From positions 1-20,614 of the IMG/VR virus record IMGVR_UViG_3300009474_000020: a DNA stretch of 20,614 nucleotides; one strand, 5' to 3'. Shown piece after piece: positions 3-8,990 of the stretch (the stretch's first letter is position 1; every line of letters starts with the position of its first letter). Position numbers and translations under genes: made by a program. Origin of the DNA: a virus. A model generated the notes under the pieces. The model worked only from the letters and a program-made list of their open reading frames with translations, was not told where the DNA came from and ran no database searches.

Positions 3-3000
3 ACTCAGTGGGCTGGTCGTCAGTTAATGGTTGGTCTAACCATGCCTCTGGCAATGCTTGGATCATATGCAGCAAAGGCTTTCAAGGAAATGGAAGCAGC
101 GGTAGTTAAGTTTCAGCGTGTATACGGAGATATATTTACTGATAGCGCAGCAACAGATGTTGCAGTTGAAAATATTAAAAGAATTGCAAATGAGTATACA
201 AAGTTTGGAGTTAGCGTAACACAAACAATGGAAATGGCAGCAACCGCTGCTGCAGCAGGTTTTCAAGGAACTGCGCTTAATGCTCAGGTAAGAGAAGCAA
301 ACAAATTAGCAGTTCTTGGTCAAGTTGAACAACAGCAGGCATTAGAGACAACTATTTCTTTACAGAATGCATTTGGTTTGTCGACTGAAGATCTTGCAAA
401 GAAGATCGATTTTCTTAACGCAGTTGAAAACCAGACAGTTCTTTCTATTGAAGATTTAACAATTGCAATTCCTAAAGCAGCACCAGTTGTAAGACAACTT
501 GGTGGAGACGTAGAAGATTTAGCATTCTTCCTTACAGCAATGAAGGAAGGTGGAATCAACGCATCACAAGGTGCAAACGCACTTAAGTCTGGACTTGCCT
601 CTATGATTAACCCAACCAAGAATACATCAGAGATGCTTGCTAAAATGGGTATAAATATTAACGCTGTTGTAGAATCAAATAAGGGAGATCTAAAAGGTAC
701 CGTACTTGGCTTTGCAAGAGCACTGGATGAATTAGATCCACTTAATCGTGCACGAGCAATCGAGCAACTTTTTGGAAAGTTTCAATTTGCAAGAATATCA
801 ACACTATTTCAAAACGTAGTAAAAGAAGGTTCACAGGCATCACGAGCACTACAATTGTCTGGTGCATCACTTGAAGAACTAGCAATTATCTCTGAGCGAG
901 AAATGGGAAAAATTGAAGATTCTGTTGGATTTAAGTTTCAGGCAGCAGTAGAACAGTTTAAACAAACAATTATGCCAATAGGAAAAGAATTCCTAGAGGC
1001 ACTAACACCAATTGTTAAGTTTATTGGTGGACTGTTTGAAAAGTTTAACAATCTATCAGATGGAACAAAAAAGTTTGTAACAATAGTAACAACGTTAGTA
1101 GCAGGAATTGGACCAATATTCCTTATGACATTTGGTTTGCTTGCAAATGGCCTTGCTAACTTAATTAAGTTGTTTGCACTAATTAGAGGTGGAATGGCAA
1201 AGTTAAATGGCCAAAATAAAGTTCTTGGTGGTGGATTTGATTATTTAACACAGCAGGAAATTGAAAACTTAGCATCATCAAATGCATTACATGGTTCACA
1301 TCAAAAACTTATTCAGGTATTTAATGTTGAAAGCACAGCGCTACAAAAACTTGCAGGATCATATGCAAACGCTGCTTCACAGGCACGTGCACTTGCTACA
1401 TCTTCTCCTGGGCTGTTTGCTTCTCCAGGGGCAACAACTGCGGTTGCTGGACTTCCAGGTGGAAGAACAAGACCAGTTAGAAAATATGCTGATGGAGTTT
1501 TGCAGGTACCAGGTCCAAAGGGTGCAGGAGATATTCAACCAGCATTCCTTGCTCCAGGTGAAGCAGTAATTCCAGCAGACGTAACAGCAAAGAATATTGG
1601 TTTCTTACATGCAATGATGGCTGGTAAGACTCCTGGATATATGGCTGGAAAGATTCCAGCAAGACCTAAGTTCCATGCAAAACCTGATGAAACACAGTCA
1701 GGTGCAAAGATGATTGGTATGCCAAAATCTATTGCACAAGTTACACAGTCAAGACAGATTGCTGATCGTATTGCAGAGTCAGTTCAAAAGAGTCAGTTTG
1801 GAAAGGTTCCACCAACAGATTTTGGAACATTGTTACAAGGAACTTCTGGAAGAAGTTTTCCTATTCCAAATGTAGGCGGAGTATACAGAAAGCCAAACGG
1901 AGAAGTTGTATTCGTAAAACCAGCAGTTGATGCAACATCAGCACTAGCAGAACAACGTGCAACAATTATTGCAAGAGAAGCACACGGACTTAGTGCACCA
2001 AAGCAAACAATCAAAACAATGATGGACCCAACAGATACAACTGGTAAGAGAAAGTTAATTGTACTTGAATCACCATATGATCCTAAATTAGCAGAAGCAA
2101 GTGGCAAGTTTACAAAGAAGCAAATGGTTACACAACTTGTTGCATCACTTCTTCGTGGAGACAAAGATTTATCAAAGTCAAATGTGTTTGGAAATACACT
2201 TGCAGATGTTGGTCCAGCAGGAGTATTTGGAAAGGCTTCTGGATTTAGAGACATTCAGTCTGCAATGCCTTCAATGAAGGATCAGGCAATGATTAATCTT
2301 CTTGGAGTTAAGGGCGGAGCAAGAAAAGACTTTGCTCTATCTACTGCAGACATAGCAAAGAAGATGACCCCACAAGAGTACAACTCTGCAATTAGCGGAG
2401 AGATTGCAAAGGTACTCCCAAAACTTAAAAATACTGTTGGTGGAATGAACCTTTCATCTGCAGAAGCAGCCCCATATAACGCAATGATTGCAAGACTTGA
2501 AGCAGGACAAAAAGTTAACTGGGCTGACTTCCAAAAGATACACGCATCTGCAGGATCTCCAGTAAAGAAACTTATGGCTGGTTTTATTCCAGAACTATCT
2601 CCAGTAGCAAAGAGCCAATCACAAGTTGAGATGCAAAAGTTTTTTGATTGGGCTGATAAGCAGGTAGAATCATCAAAACTAGATGGAACATTTAAGGGCA
2701 GATGGAAGAAATCAACAGGACCAGCATTCAGACAAAGTTTGATGGAAAAGATGATTTATGATCCAAATAGCAAAACATTCTGGACAAATCAAGGTGGAAC
2801 AAATGGAGTTAACCTTGAGCGAATGCAAGAAAGATTCAACTATCGTTTCGGTATTGCACCTGATCCAAAGAGTGGAAAGTATGTAAAATCTAATCTATTT
2901 AACATCAATAAATTCTTGAGCAATGTTACTTCAGGTGGAGCATCCAAGCGTGGTGGAGATATTGGTGCCAATAACTCAAAGGCAAAGATTGTATGGAATG

Positions 3001-6000
3001 ATATTAAAAAGGCTGCAGCAGATCCTGGCGGAATAAAGTCAGACAAGACAATAAGAAAGTATACAGACTTCCTTGCAAACATGAAGGATGCAGCAGGAAA
3101 TGAAACTCAGTTAGCAAAAGACTTAAAGTCAAAGGATCTTGGTGTTCGTAAGGCTGCAATGGAAAGCATCGATAAGATGTTTAAATTTGATGCATCTCAC
3201 GCACAGGCAGTTAGAGTCTATGACAGTTTAGATGATGCTGCAGCAGGTAAATCAAGACCAGCAGCAAAGTCAGAAAAATACTCTATGGGAACAATGGGTC
3301 CAGACTATAGAGTTGTAAATGAATATGTTAAAACAAATGATCCTCAGAATAAATCTAGATTTGAGAAAATTTTAGACTGGAACAATAAAAGTGGCAACCC
3401 GCTAGGTCTTAATGCATCACAAACAAGTAGTATTCAGGCTGCTATTCAGTCAATCGTAAAACAAGAGAATCACCCGTTTGAGCCACAGAACCAAAGACAT
3501 GTTAAGGCACTTGCAGAACTTGAAATAAAGGCAAGAGACATGATGACAACAAATCCATCACAGTCTAAGGGCCTATCATTCTTAAGCAAGAATCCTGGCG
3601 CATACATGAATGCAAGACTTGTTAACGAGGTAATGTCTGACAGAATTGCAGACTCATCTTGGTTTAAGAGAATGAATGCAAAAAAGATGTTTATGAATAC
3701 AGACATTCTTGATGAAAAGGGAAGACCAGTACGTGGAGGATTGGAAACTGTAAGAAAGTCAGAATATTATCGTGATCCAAAAACTGGACGATTTATTCCT
3801 TACACTGGACAGAATACAATTCCAGTATCAACTGGTAGAGTAACTGGCAAGGGAACTGAAACTAGAACTCCAGATACCACAAAGACTGGTGGAGGACCGA
3901 CAGCAACAAGATCACAGGCAAGAACATTTGCTATTAGACGTGATGCGGGAGATCCAAGGTTCCAAGGCCTAGGCACAGAATCTGGATTAAGCAAGGCAGC
4001 ACAAGGAAGAGTTACTAATGCTGTTCAGGAACAAGCACGACTATTGAAGGCAAGAAATAACCTAACCAAGCAAGAAATTAGTCAGGCTCTTTCACAGTAT
4101 AGACGAAGAGTGGTTGCTGCTGAAATTGAAAAAAGCAATAATGTTTCACAAGAAAAAAGAATGCGTGAGCAAGCAAAAGCAGAAACAGCCAAACTAACAA
4201 ATGCTAAGGATGCTGCAAAGCGAGAGGCTGTCGAAAAGAGAATGGCCCGTCAGGAAAAAGTTGGCAGATATTCAGGTGGAACAGCAGGTGCCCTTGGTGG
4301 TGTAGCAATGGGAGCAATGATGACTGGTGCCGACTCTAAGGTCACTGGAGGCCTATTTGCGGCCTCTGCACTTGCAGGCATGGCTCCAATGTTAACTAAC
4401 CCATATATTGCTGCAGGAACGGCTGTACTGGCTCTTGCTGGATCTGTATGGATTGCAGAAAAAGCCAATAAGTCAGCAGCCGAAAAAATATCAAGGTTTA
4501 CAGATGAAACATCTGCAACAACTGAAAAAATGAAGTCTATTGGAGAACTTACTGGAAAAGTCGGGGCTTCAGAACTATATGCACGAAAGAGATCCACATC
4601 AGTATCTGATAGATATACTACTGGATTTGAAAGAGGAAAGCAGCAGTTTGGTGCAACCTTTGTAGAATCAGAAACTGGTAAGTCTATTGTAGAGTCATTT
4701 ACAAAAGATATGGTGACTGGTGGAAATAATGCTGTTAAGAAAATATCTTTACAACTTGCTGCCTATGTTTCAGATGGAATAATGAGTGCAGAACAGGCCC
4801 ATTCAGTTGCAAGCCAAATTGGAATTAATTTAAATAATCAAACTGTAACTTCTCAGATAAGTGGTGAAATTCTTTCACTTATTGGTCCAGGTGGTGTAGA
4901 CCTACTTAAAGATCCGCTAACTGTAAGAATGAACTTAGTTCAAGAGCAAATTTCTAGCACATCAATGAGCACAGAGGATTATGCTGCTGCTGGAGTTCCA
5001 GTATTTGATATGGGGGCTCAGGATGATATTCAAGAGGCTGCATCCAACTACTTTGATGATTACATTGCATTGTTTACAGAAACTGGACCAGAAAGAATTG
5101 GAGCAGCACTAGGTTCATCCTTTGCTCAATCTTTCGAGTTTAATCAATCTCAGGCAGATTCATTTGCTAAATATTATGATGATCAGATATTGATATTACA
5201 AAAACAAAAGTTACAAACATCTGAGGTTTCAAAGCAAAAAGTTATAACTGATAAAATTCTTGAACTAGAAGGAAAAAGAAATTCTGGCCTAGAGGCATTT
5301 AAGAAAAACAATCAGGCAATATTAGATACCGCAAGTAAGGCTATTGGTGCACTACAAAACAGTAGTCCAGGAACAAAGGCACTTAAGACAGCCTCACGAA
5401 CACAACTATTAGACAAGTACAAGGGTGGGCCAGAAGAGTTAGCATCAGTTGTTCTTGCAGAGAAAACTAAAAAATTAGACACAGATCTAGAGATAAAGAT
5501 TAATGCTGTAGCAGGAAGTGGAATTGTCGGTCCAGACGCATTAAGTAAAATGGTTGACATGTTTGGAACAGATGCAAAGGGACAAGCAGCAATCCGCAGA
5601 AATCTAGATTTGGCAATCACAAAGCACGACCCAGGAAAAGTTCAGCAGTTGCTTCTACAACTTGGAACATTCAAAAACGAAAAAACAAGTAGAAAAATTT
5701 TTGTTGCATTAATGAAAAAAGATCCAGCAAAGTTTGATAAACTTGCATCAACAATTGCACTTATGCAAAAGATGGACACCAAGGAAATCAATTTAGAAGC
5801 ATTCTTTGAATCAGAGGATGCCATTACAAAACTAGAAGACCTTCAGTTAAAACTTGAAGAAGTCGAAAACATGCCAACTCCAATTACCACAGAAGCAATT
5901 GCTCTTATTAATACTGATGGAAATTCAAAAACTAAGGATATGAGTGCATTACTTGCTATTTGGGACCAATGGGGCAATCTTCCAGATGAAACAAAAAAGA

Positions 6001-8990
6001 CTGTTATTCAAGAGTACATTGCAATATATTCAACAATTGATGATGAAGCAGCACTTAACAGCATAAAGACTAGAAATCCAAAAGCAAGAAAAATTACACA
6101 AGCACAAATTAATGCTGAAAAAGGAAGAATGGCAGCAGAAAGAACGATGCAGGTTGTCAATCAGGATATTGCATCTGCCAAGGCTAACGGCATTGATGAT
6201 GGGTCTAAGGATGGTTCAAAGAAGGAAGATCCAATCAATGACATTCTTAGAAGACTCAAAGAGGTAAGACTTGCGTCTGTTAATGCTGCTGGTGGCATTT
6301 CAGAATTATTTAAAGCAGTCGGAGATGGCAAAAAGGTAAAGGGCGTAATTGGTGATGTATTCAACGGAATGCAACAGCAGTTAACTAAAAAGGGCTCAAA
6401 CCAACAGTTTATTGACTTCCTAACCTCTATGATTGGTGACCCAGCAGAACTTGGCAAGTACATGAAGACTGCTACAAAGGCTCCCAGCGGAAAGAACAAG
6501 GGTAAGGTTGTAGATCCATTTACTGGTAAGGTAATTCAGGGTGGCAAGGCTGGGGGTGTAGTTTTATCTGATAAGGGTAAAGCAGCACAAGCAGGGTTAG
6601 CAAAGGCTATTGGTGGAGACTACAATGCAGCACAACTTAAATCAATAACAAATGATAAAGATCGTGCCAAGGTCATGGAAAGAATTGCAACACTTGCAAA
6701 GACAAACAATAAGTTTGTTATTGATAATGCAACACTACAAAATATTTTAAATGACGAATACTATGTAACTGAAATTGCTGCTGGAAGAATTACAGACAAG
6801 GAACTTGAGACAAACACACTTCTTGCAAAGCAAGCAGAATTAAGACAAAAGATTAACGGTATTGTAACTGAAGGACTTTCTGCACAACAGGAAATTTCAG
6901 ATAAGGGTCGAATTGGTGAACTTCTAAAGTTTATGAAGGAGACTACAGATCTTCCACAACTTTCTGAGAACGCTTTGCTTGATATGATTAAGAATCCAAA
7001 TCAACTATCTGCTGCAATTTCTGCAATGGATATGTATAAGACTGGAATAGAAAAGGTTCCTGCAAGCCTACAGAAGGTTGTTGATGGACTTAATAATGTT
7101 CAGAAGAATGCTAAGATTCAGGGATACATCAATTTTGCATCACAAACAATGCCAGAGAAAATTTCTCAGGGAGCAGCAGCAGCACAAAATGTTTTAGGAG
7201 TTAAGGCACGTTTAAGAGAAAGAATGAACATGTCTGAACTCAGAAAGTATGGAACAAAGGCAAACCCTAGCATGGGAGAGACTGCCTATCAGAATGCACT
7301 AAAGGCAACTGGTGGTGCCTCATTGACAGGTGGCGGAAAGAGTTTGAGTCAGATTCAAGTTGCAAGACAAGGACTTGGATCCCAAATGAACCTTGTACAG
7401 GCAAGAGCAAATCAGATTCAAAGAGACATCTCTGCAAAAGAAGATGAACTAAATAAAGCAATAGAAGATAAGAATAAGTATTATGAAAAGTTAATCGACA
7501 CCGAAAAGGATTCTATTGAGGCAAATGAGTCAAACCTTAAGAAGCAGTTTACAGACTTAATTGATGCAAAGCAAACAGAGTCTAATAAGTTAAGCAATGA
7601 TTTAGCAATTATTAATCATCAAGAAGAAGAAATCAACAAGGTCTATGATGAAAGAATCAAGGCATTAAATGAAACACAGCAGATAAATCAAAGACTTATT
7701 GCTCAACAACAAACACAACTTGGTTTAGCAGATGCAATTACACAGGGTGACATAGCAGGAGCAGCCCGTGCTGCTCAAGAAATGCGATCACAGAGTGCAG
7801 CAGCATATGCAGAAGATACAACAAATGCTCTAACACAAGCAAGAGACAACCAGATCAAGGGCCTAAAGGGTGCAGAGTCTGGAATGACAAAGGAACAAAT
7901 TGCAGAGCGTCAGTATCAAATATCTCAAGAGATTTATAAGTTAGAAACAAATCCTGCAAGACTTGCAATAGTCGCTGCAATAGAAGCATCACAGGCTAAG
8001 ATTACTCAGTATGAAAAAGATAGATCTGTTGCACTCGATGGAATAAATGCTAAGTATGAAACAGAGGTTGCTAATTTAAATAAGGCTCTTGCTGCACAAA
8101 CAAGCATCCTTGACTCATTAGAAAAAGAAGATGCAGCCCTTGCAGCACAAGAAGCAGAACTTATTTTGATTCTTGATAGTCTAACTAGCATGGATGACCT
8201 TGCTGGAAAAACGCTACAAGATTTTGAAGATATGGTTCTTAAGGCAGAATCAATGGCCACTGCTCTAGAAGAAGATATTGTTAAGGCAATGATGGCTATT
8301 GAGGCAGACTCGGCAAGTGCCTCTGGATCTTGGACAAACATTGTGGACAAGATTAACACACTTCCAGATTCAATTACTATTCAAAGCATTATAAATGAAG
8401 TTAGAAACATTACAGAAAATATTACAAGGTATATAACAACTATAGAAACTGGTGGTGGTTCAAGTTCAAGTTCATCAAGCAGTTCAAGTTCATCAAGTAG
8501 TTCAACAACATCTACTAGTGGTTCTACTGGGTCTACAGGATCCAAAGGAACTACAGGCTCTGCATCAGAGGCAAATGCAAAAACTGCAACTACTGCCCAA
8601 AATGCAGCAGCATCCGCAGCAACTTCAGCAGCATTAAGGCAACTTACATCTGGAGGATCTCTAAGTGCATCACAGAAAAAACTTTTGGGAATGTCTTCTG
8701 GAGGGCTAGTTCCCAAGTATTTCTCTCTTGGTGGATTTGCTAAAGGAACGGACATTGTTCCAGCAATGCTAACACCAGGAGAATTTGTAATGAGCAAGTA
8801 TGCTGTAGACACATATGGAGTTGATAGAATGAAGGCAATTAATTCTGGATCAGACGCTTCCTCTTCAGTGTATAATTATGAGTTAGTAGTAAATGTTAAG
8901 TCAGATGCTAATGCAAGCGATATTGCAAACACAGTAATGGCTAAGATTAAGCAGGTAGACGATATGAGATTAAAGGGGAATAGATTTTAA
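3..8990 (+). CDS. Phage tail tape measure protein, 5'-truncated, giant multidomain
   Basis: This protein sets siphophage tail length and is ejected ahead of or with the DNA. The frame is open to the left edge, so the gene starts upstream; at least 2995 aa are visible. Residues below count from the Met at position 27. Residues ~1-270 match the classic tape-measure core (a stretch reading FLTAMKEGGI, GANALKSGL). Residues ~345-395 are a hydrophobic pair of helices. Residues ~490-530 carry a GDIQPAFLAPGE motif. Residues ~605-845 look like an inserted kinase-like domain. Residues ~1419-1482 are a Gly/Ala-rich hydrophobic region, and ~2450-2750 are long coiled coil (Glu/Lys/Gln-rich). A poly-Ser linker follows, then a terminal GTDIVPAMLTPGE motif at ~2906-2919. 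I find no cysteine in the whole visible protein. At roughly 0.15 nm per residue it would specify a tail up to ~450 nm, less if the embedded domains are globular. The stop overlaps the next start by 1 bp. Confidence 0.93.
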   Translation, partial: TQWAGRQLMVGLTMPLAMLGSYAAKAFKEMEAAVVKFQRVYGDIFTDSAATDVAVENIKRIANEYTKFGVSVTQTMEMAATAAAAGFQGTALNAQVREANKLAVLGQVEQQQALETTISLQNAFGLSTEDLAKKIDFLNAVENQTVLSIEDLTIAIPKAAPVVRQLGGDVEDLAFFLTAMKEGGINASQGANALKSGLASMINPTKNTSEMLAKMGININAVVESNKGDLKGTVLGFARALDELDPLNRARAIEQLFGKFQFARISTLFQNVVKEGSQASRALQLSGASLEELAIISEREMGKIEDSVGFKFQAAVEQFKQTIMPIGKEFLEALTPIVKFIGGLFEKFNNLSDGTKKFVTIVTTLVAGIGPIFLMTFGLLANGLANLIKLFALIRGGMAKLNGQNKVLGGGFDYLTQQEIENLASSNALHGSHQKLIQVFNVESTALQKLAGSYANAASQARALATSSPGLFASPGATTAVAGLPGGRTRPVRKYADGVLQVPGPKGAGDIQPAFLAPGEAVIPADVTAKNIGFLHAMMAGKTPGYMAGKIPARPKFHAKPDETQSGAKMIGMPKSIAQVTQSRQIADRIAESVQKSQFGKVPPTDFGTLLQGTSGRSFPIPNVGGVYRKPNGEVVFVKPAVDATSALAEQRATIIAREAHGLSAPKQTIKTMMDPTDTTGKRKLIVLESPYDPKLAEASGKFTKKQMVTQLVASLLRGDKDLSKSNVFGNTLADVGPAGVFGKASGFRDIQSAMPSMKDQAMINLLGVKGGARKDFALSTADIAKKMTPQEYNSAISGEIAKVLPKLKNTVGGMNLSSAEAAPYNAMIARLEAGQKVNWADFQKIHASAGSPVKKLMAGFIPELSPVAKSQSQVEMQKFFDWADKQVESSKLDGTFKGRWKKSTGPAFRQSLMEKMIYDPNSKTFWTNQGGTNGVNLERMQERFNYRFGIAPDPKSGKYVKSNLFNINKFLSNVTSGGASKRGGDIGANNSKAKIVWNDIKKAAADPGGIKSDKTIRKYTDFLANMKDAAGNETQLAKDLKSKDLGVRKAAMESIDKMFKFDASHAQAVRVYDSLDDAAAGKSRPAAKSEKYSMGTMGPDYRVVNEYVKTNDPQNKSRFEKILDWNNKSGNPLGLNASQTSSIQAAIQSIVKQENHPFEPQNQRHVKALAELEIKARDMMTTNPSQSKGLSFLSKNPGAYMNARLVNEVMSDRIADSSWFKRMNAKKMFMNTDILDEKGRPVRGGLETVRKSEYYRDPKTGRFIPYTGQNTIPVSTGRVTGKGTETRTPDTTKTGGGPTATRSQARTFAIRRDAGDPRFQGLGTESGLSKAAQGRVTNAVQEQARLLKARNNLTKQEISQALSQYRRRVVAAEIEKSNNVSQEKRMREQAKAETAKLTNAKDAAKREAVEKRMARQEKVGRYSGGTAGALGGVAMGAMMTGADSKVTGGLFAASALAGMAPMLTNPYIAAGTAVLALAGSVWIAEKANKSAAEKISRFTDETSATTEKMKSIGELTGKVGASELYARKRSTSVSDRYTTGFERGKQQFGATFVESETGKSIVESFTKDMVTGGNNAVKKISLQLAAYVSDGIMSAEQAHSVASQIGINLNNQTVTSQISGEILSLIGPGGVDLLKDPLTVRMNLVQEQISSTSMSTEDYAAAGVPVFDMGAQDDIQEAASNYFDDYIALFTETGPERIGAALGSSFAQSFEFNQSQADSFAKYYDDQILILQKQKLQTSEVSKQKVITDKILELEGKRNSGLEAFKKNNQAILDTASKAIGALQNSSPGTKALKTASRTQLLDKYKGGPEELASVVLAEKTKKLDTDLEIKINAVAGSGIVGPDALSKMVDMFGTDAKGQAAIRRNLDLAITKHDPGKVQQLLLQLGTFKNEKTSRKIFVALMKKDPAKFDKLASTIALMQKMDTKEINLEAFFESEDAITKLEDLQLKLEEVENMPTPITTEAIALINTDGNSKTKDMSALLAIWDQWGNLPDETKKTVIQEYIAIYSTIDDEAALNSIKTRNPKARKITQAQINAEKGRMAAERTMQVVNQDIASAKANGIDDGSKDGSKKEDPINDILRRLKEVRLASVNAAGGISELFKAVGDGKKVKGVIGDVFNGMQQQLTKKGSNQQFIDFLTSMIGDPAELGKYMKTATKAPSGKNKGKVVDPFTGKVIQGGKAGGVVLSDKGKAAQAGLAKAIGGDYNAAQLKSITNDKDRAKVMERIATLAKTNNKFVIDNATLQNILNDEYYVTEIAAGRITDKELETNTLLAKQAELRQKINGIVTEGLSAQQEISDKGRIGELLKFMKETTDLPQLSENALLDMIKNPNQLSAAISAMDMYKTGIEKVPASLQKVVDGLNNVQKNAKIQGYINFASQTMPEKISQGAAAAQNVLGVKARLRERMNMSELRKYGTKANPSMGETAYQNALKATGGASLTGGGKSLSQIQVARQGLGSQMNLVQARANQIQRDISAKEDELNKAIEDKNKYYEKLIDTEKDSIEANESNLKKQFTDLIDAKQTESNKLSNDLAIINHQEEEINKVYDERIKALNETQQINQRLIAQQQTQLGLADAITQGDIAGAARAAQEMRSQSAAAYAEDTTNALTQARDNQIKGLKGAESGMTKEQIAERQYQISQEIYKLETNPARLAIVAAIEASQAKITQYEKDRSVALDGINAKYETEVANLNKALAAQTSILDSLEKEDAALAAQEAELILILDSLTSMDDLAGKTLQDFEDMVLKAESMATALEEDIVKAMMAIEADSASASGSWTNIVDKINTLPDSITIQSIINEVRNITENITRYITTIETGGGSSSSSSSSSSSSSSSTTSTSGSTGSTGSKGTTGSASEANAKTATTAQNAAASAATSAALRQLTSGGSLSASQKKLLGMSSGGLVPKYFSLGGFAKGTDIVPAMLTPGEFVMSKYAVDTYGVDRMKAINSGSDASSSVYNYELVVNVKSDANASDIANTVMAKIKQVDDMRLKGNRF
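1842..2560 (+). other. Kinase-like domain embedded in the tape measure protein (tentative)
   Basis: This segment of the tape measure protein (residues ~606-845 from Met at 27) reads like a small HipA/PI-kinase/actin-fragmin-kinase type fold. There is a glycine-rich strand (NVGGVYRKPNGE), then VVFVKP with a candidate ATP lysine K631. The helix AREAHG has a candidate paired glutamate E651. A strand LIVLESPYD could be the hinge. The C-lobe motif GDKDLSKSN gives D714-x4-N719, the exact catalytic Asp to Asn spacing of kinases, followed by LADVGP with D727 as a possible metal ligand. The motifs are directly visible, but the fold assignment is inference. It could instead be a decayed or purely structural domain. 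Boundaries are approximate. Confidence 0.4.
8466..8501 (+). repeat. 18-bp tandem repeat coding a poly-serine linker
   Basis: Two adjacent 18-base units, TCAAGTTCATCAAGCAGT and TCAAGTTCATCAAGTAGT, differ at one base and lie in frame within a longer TCA/AGT serine-codon tract (about 8457-8506). They encode part of a run of about 15 serines followed by a Ser/Thr/Gly-rich stretch in the tape measure protein, between the coiled-coil part and the C-terminal domain. This is a flexible linker that could gain or lose units by replication slippage without a frameshift. Confidence 0.8.
8972..8978 (+). promoter_or_regulatory. Shine-Dalgarno AAAGGGG for the Dit-like gene
   Basis: AAAGGGG lies 11 nt before the ATG at 8990, inside the 3' end of the tape measure gene. 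It is one of only a few strong ribosome sites in the window. It supports independent initiation at the ATG that overlaps the tape measure stop as TAATG. Confidence 0.6.

Follow-up and report, generated by a model that had tools for sequence, protein, structure and literature searches.

The tape measure protein (TMP) encoded on the 20.6-kb virus fragment analyzed here (hereafter the window) carries an internal, strongly conserved domain whose predicted fold is that of a kinase. Our favored explanation, which we consider probable, is that this domain belongs to the HipA/PI4K/CtkA-like branch of the protein-kinase-like (PKL) superfamily and forms an exchangeable cargo in the TMPs of large actinobacterial siphophages, where it would act as a phosphotransferase ejected with the TMP. 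TMPs are usually regarded as rulers for the tail and conduits through the membrane. A conserved and exchangeable kinase-like domain in the first third of such a protein suggests the delivery of an enzyme before any phage gene expression, so that these phages may introduce a kinase into their host as infection begins.

The Carrier Protein, Its Relatives and Their Hosts

The domain lies in an ORF that is open at its 5' end (3..8990, plus strand). This ORF matches both the Pfam family PhageMin_Tail (E 1.5e-27) and the TMP profile PHROG 10030 (E 7.8e-90). Genes for a minor tail protein, a tail protein, a DnaB-like helicase and a primase follow it on the 3' side, while an Ig-domain gene and small genes without assigned function lie 5' of the TMP gene in one relative. 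Sequence profile and tail gene order both fit a TMP, and cultured relatives of the N-terminal part carry the same annotation, the best matches being Streptomyces phages of ~130 kb, Tomas and Faust among them. Judging from relatives (L002), ~195 aa of the protein are missing 5' of the window. The complete TMP is estimated on this basis at ~3190 aa, with the kinase-like domain internal at about residues 761-1058; this is the first third of the protein, and not its middle as the first-pass annotation had it.

Polyvalent proteins combine at least two disparate catalytic domains within a single polypeptide. We recognized no second domain in the TMP, and the segment that follows the kinase-like domain (residues 864-1329) was modeled poorly (pLDDT 56.6, pTM 0.33). 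This same segment (window 2592-3989) is common to kinase-less relatives, yet occurs in 10 loci only and is not recognizable in more distant kinase carriers. It is possibly a second exchangeable module.

In two scans of IMG/VR viral contigs, the confirmed relatives of the domain numbered 330 and 388, and 80 from each set were retained for analysis. In all relatives fetched, the domain sits within a long, TMP-sized ORF (some ended by contig edges), and its position there varies by lineage from ~715 to 1370. A tblastn search of GenBank phages and plasmids yielded no domain relative, nor did the genome contigs searched; therefore, no cultured carrier is represented in these collections. A WhiB gene was present in all 14 large contigs tested from this phage group (L004, L013, L015, L016, L028, L106, L162, L163, L191, L196, L201, L204, L244, and L254), and the sole match in the WhiB control search was Corynebacterium. 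Given the WhiB genes and the actinophages that are the best cultured relatives of the TMP, the hosts are very probably Actinomycetota.

Predicted Fold of the Domain

Residues 566-863 of the TMP (1698..2591, plus strand; 298 aa, with the structured part at ~1731-2546) form an autonomous domain. AlphaFold2, run on a 51-sequence alignment, produced a model of this domain with a pLDDT of 84.8 and a pTM of 0.85, in which the structural elements follow the order of a kinase. In domain numbering, strands at 44-76 (with K74 in strand 70-76) are followed by a helix at 79-94 that contains E85, strands at 104-126, a helix at 140-153, the catalytic loop at 155-162, D170, and finally a C-terminal helical lobe (helices 193-283).

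Foldseek against the PDB placed CtkA at the top (probability 1.00, E 4.8e-4). CtkA was also the best match in VIA-align (Z 10.9 over 203 residues), followed by PI4KIIalpha (9.7), a Fam20C-like Golgi casein kinase (9.4), LepB (9.1), VPS34 and HipA (8.9 each), and actin-fragmin kinase and a bacterial Ser/Thr kinase (8.3 each); all 50 matches listed have kinase-like folds. According to the tool's own note, models without a clear match usually reach a best Z of 7 to 8. A Z of 10.9 at the head of so homogeneous a list is meaningful, though values of 8-11 are moderate and do not resolve the subfamily. Matches in BFVD include kinase-like domains in other tailed-phage proteins, under such names as portal protein, ADP-ribosyltransferase, and PI3/4-kinase. 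The fold is accordingly predicted to be kinase-like and nearest to the HipA, PI-kinase and actin-fragmin kinase branch, which is what the first-pass annotation had anticipated. With its two modeled lobes and its Lys/Glu and Asp/Asn/Asp positions, the domain is assigned to the PKL superfamily. Its activation segment, DVGxAGVFxxASGxR, is unlike that of canonical kinases, and we found no credible domain match in Pfam, PHROGs, NCBIfam, PADLOC profiles or PDB sequences.

Catalytic Motifs and Their Conservation

Five motif residues had been proposed in kinase order, numbered from the ATG at base 27, and we found them at the claimed sites in VVFVKP (1905-1922), AREAHG (1971-1988), GDKDLSKSN (2157-2183), and LADVGP (2199-2216). 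Conservation was assessed in 62 relatives that are <95% identical to each other, with a minimum pairwise identity of 34%. The strand-3 lysine, K74 of the domain (K631 in the earlier numbering; 1917..1919, plus strand), is identical in 62/62. Equally invariant are both aspartates of D155-K-D157 (D712 and D714; 2160..2168, with the D714 codon at 2166), among which D157 is the candidate catalytic residue, as well as the catalytic-loop asparagine N162 (N719; 2181..2183) and the DFG-equivalent aspartate D170 (D727; 2205..2207). The expected conservation thus extends to K631, D714, N719, and D727. It does not extend to E651 (E94 of the domain), which varies among the 62 (Glu in 36, Asp in 9, Lys in 6, Ala and Gly in 3 each) and had been mistaken for the kinase glutamate; the helix-C glutamate lies nine positions away at E642 (E85 of the domain; 1950..1952), where it is kept by 61 of the 62.

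No other part of the TMP, the N-terminal region excepted, is as well conserved as the kinase-like domain. Residues 601-750, within the domain, are 69-73% identical to distant relatives, and the corresponding figure for the TMP after residue 863, its extreme C-terminus excepted, is 14-54%. The dN/dS of the domain is 0.06-0.12. On these comparisons, strict selection acts on the putative ATP-binding and catalytic residues.

Modularity of the Cargo Slot

The domain is part of a module of 311 codons (1659..2591, plus strand) that is present in the window and in most relatives, and that appears as one clean in-frame gap in four close relatives (L016-L019). These four are 87-88% identical to the window just upstream of the module and lack exactly residues 553-863; at their empty site MAGSIP runs directly into ELSP, where the window has MAGKIP, the 311 aa, and then ELSP. 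The two ends of the module carry an imperfect 21-nt direct repeat, with the left copy (MAGKIPA) at 1641..1661 and the right copy (MAGFIPE) at 2574..2594, both on the plus strand, and a single copy is kept at the empty site. The repeat copies match at 16/21 positions, a value reached by 4 of 384 random pairs. This pattern suggests that the module was gained or lost via recombination between short repeats. In a phylogeny built from the N-terminal region, at least five changes are needed to account for the presence of the domain, as counted by a quick method with L235 scored as lacking the kinase. The existence of phages without the domain shows that it is dispensable.

One contig, L235 (5110-6200), keeps the flanks of L237 but has another kinase-like domain between them in place of the kinase cassette. 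The flanks common to these two contigs read LPRxGVPGFAxGVVSLGMPIPFK... and ...SVPGPKGAGDIQPAMLSPGEAVIP. The replacement domain has motifs of the PI3/PI4-kinase type (GGFRDxxGKKYYVK, E, NVDTHAGNVMF, and NLDIGNS) and matches PF00454 across its catalytic loop, a match that is weak and sub-threshold (E 0.016). L235 is the single contig from which this cassette exchange is known.

Directly before the cargo slot lies a linker, LQVPGPKGAGDIQPAFLAPGEAVIP (1500..1574, plus strand), whose general form is PGPKGAGD..PA.L.PGE.VIP and which is also found in L083, L160, L167, L235, L238, and L244. Several lineages have a second copy beyond the cargo, and the linker resembles the PGEFVM motif at the C-terminus of the TMP. 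It is possibly a recombination or processing site. In L238 (6661-7635), the slot is bounded on either side by a copy of the VPGPKGAGD..SPGEAVIP linker and contains an HNH-nuclease-like motif (SHIVPRSQL...NEWAEDNLIMDSNIVNESLKN); Pfam offered no support for this motif. The kinase-less TMPs L188-L254 have very diverse, Pfam-silent sequence in the slot, past ~residue 735, and a Pfam search of the variable region in 20 relatives without the domain returned nothing credible. This variable region could hold further unrecognized cargo.

A Second Phage Kinase-Like Family

L235 also led us to a second family of kinase-like phage proteins, with the conserved residues YxK, E, WD...DN, and DxGG. Its members are large, uncharacterized proteins without a kinase annotation. 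One is a giant protein encoded a few genes past the portal gene of the actinobacterial (Actinomycetia) phage DSL-LC01 from Dishui Lake (L258, OQ999401.1); in the Gordonia phages Forza and GodonK (L275 and L276), the gene comes immediately after the portal gene. Further members occur in Pseudomonas, Enterobacter, and Morganella phages, partly in proteins annotated as ADP-ribosyltransferases.

A profile comparison of the TMP family with this second family in hhalign paired K74 with K, E85 with E, D157 with D, N162 with N, and D170 with D (P 7e-4); the P was 0.15 when an unrelated TMP segment served as the control. With the single L235 sequence the N-lobe alone was aligned, the full register being obtained with an alignment as input. 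The link between the two families is weak by itself, yet it is in register with the predicted structure.

Proposed Function and Alternative Explanations

A folded kinase of ~4 nm hardly fits the lumen of a 4-nm tail tube, and the passage would therefore be made in an unfolded or deformed state; the finding raises the physical question of how a folded domain gets through such a tube. We propose that, at infection, the TMP would leave through the tail tube before the DNA does, and that its cargo part would arrive at the inner membrane or in the cytoplasm and fold there. The domain might then phosphorylate (or otherwise nucleotidylate) one or more host proteins, and this modification could favor the phage by preparing the cell or by dampening an early defense. 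Known TMP biology makes such delivery plausible; the TMP of lambda, for one, meets inner-membrane proteins during injection (PMC13190303). A broader proposal, to which we give slightly less than an even chance, is that actinobacterial phages use their TMPs as polymorphic carriers of effectors. The slot after the VPGPKGAGD..PGEAVIP linker would hold interchangeable enzymes (two unrelated kinase families and possibly a nuclease), injected before the genome so that the host is reprogrammed or disarmed ahead of phage gene expression. The kinase-like domain itself suggests a likely function for hundreds of unannotated environmental phage proteins.

Several other explanations were weighed against ejection of a phosphotransferase. 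A kinase fold may serve another chemistry, such as AMPylation, glutamylation, or the phosphorylation of lipids or nucleotides, as it does in several kinase-fold enzymes. Lipid kinases and LepB stand beside protein kinases among the nearest solved relatives, and the divergent activation segment fits this explanation as well; however, the Lys, Glu, Asp, Asn, and Asp are all kept in canonical order, a set that indicates phosphotransfer while leaving the acceptor undecided. We regard a different chemistry as unlikely. Alternatively, the kinase could work in the producing cell, phosphorylating itself or tail components at assembly and then riding along in the virion. Strict conservation is compatible with such a role, TMP synthesis is late and supplies several copies to each tail, and no folded domain would need to be delivered. 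An assembly step would, however, be less dispensable than the domain appears to be, with close relatives lacking it in otherwise similar TMPs and another lineage swapping in a different kinase-like domain, and we think this explanation unlikely.

Far less probable is a pseudokinase, that is, a former kinase retained as a structural or regulatory module such as a tape-measure stop or spacer. Its position in a structural protein and its capacity to be lost would suit this role, but pseudokinases normally lose some of their catalytic positions, which here are invariant or nearly so, and the replacement domain in L235 has intact motifs too. There is finally the reading of a chance motif in a coiled-coil TMP without any kinase fold. 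About 10% of shuffled TMPs contain a match to an equivalent regular expression, which was dropped as evidence for being too weak; the motif, weak alone, owes its significance to conservation and structure. The confident globular model, the structural matches to kinases, the conservation, and the clean module boundaries rule this reading out.

Comparison With Known Systems

A literature search for a kinase in a phage TMP found no paper. The cyanophage MinS1, in which a "kinase domain" and a TMP are reported, was rejected as a precedent given that these are separate genes. The earlier claim that no characterized case exists stands for TMPs in the literature searched, although kinases had been predicted in polyvalent proteins that phages inject (Iyer et al., 2017, PMC5512222). 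Earlier proposals thus exist for kinases injected by phages, as they do for effectors derived from TMPs.

The HipA/HipT Ser/Thr kinases of toxin-antitoxin systems share with the TMP domain a kinase-like fold (VIA-align Z of 8.9 for HipA and 8.3 for the bacterial Ser/Thr kinase), a lone bacterial-type catalytic domain, and a D-x4-N catalytic loop. K86, N215, and D233 of HipT are essential for toxicity, and HipA, a kinase of this fold, halts growth via phosphorylation of a tRNA synthetase (PMC9325769); this example implies no target for the TMP domain. Unlike HipA, the TMP domain has a DVGxAGVF activation segment and sits in a virion protein, and the 11 members scanned gave no Pfam match of any kind, nor did the window match HipA_C (PF07804). 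The closest solved folds are those of CtkA and PI4KIIalpha-like atypical kinases (Z 10.9 and 9.7), to which the domain is 14-15% and 10-11% identical, respectively, with no detectable sequence profile match.

Like the TMP domain, the polyvalent-protein kinases are domains of the kinase superfamily in large proteins that are supposedly co-injected with DNA. That kinase group lacks the C-terminal lobe and occurs mainly in phages of Verrucomicrobia-Chlamydia and Bacteroidetes (PMC5512222), whereas the carrier here is a TMP and the modeled domain keeps a helical C-lobe after D170. The MuF polymorphic toxins of temperate phages also place variable effector domains on a virion protein for which injection has been proposed; there, the carrier is a head/packaging protein, the effector domains are C-terminal, and no kinase is mentioned (PMC5576092). 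The Sle1-type effectors of actinobacterial contractile injection systems likewise combine a TMP-derived carrier with swappable functional domains in actinobacteria (PMC13277306). Those effectors belong to a bacterial device rather than a phage, with a C-terminal functional domain and no kinase reported, while the phage domain is internal to its TMP. The kinase-like domain described here thereby ties phage tails to the TMP-derived effectors of actinobacterial injection systems.
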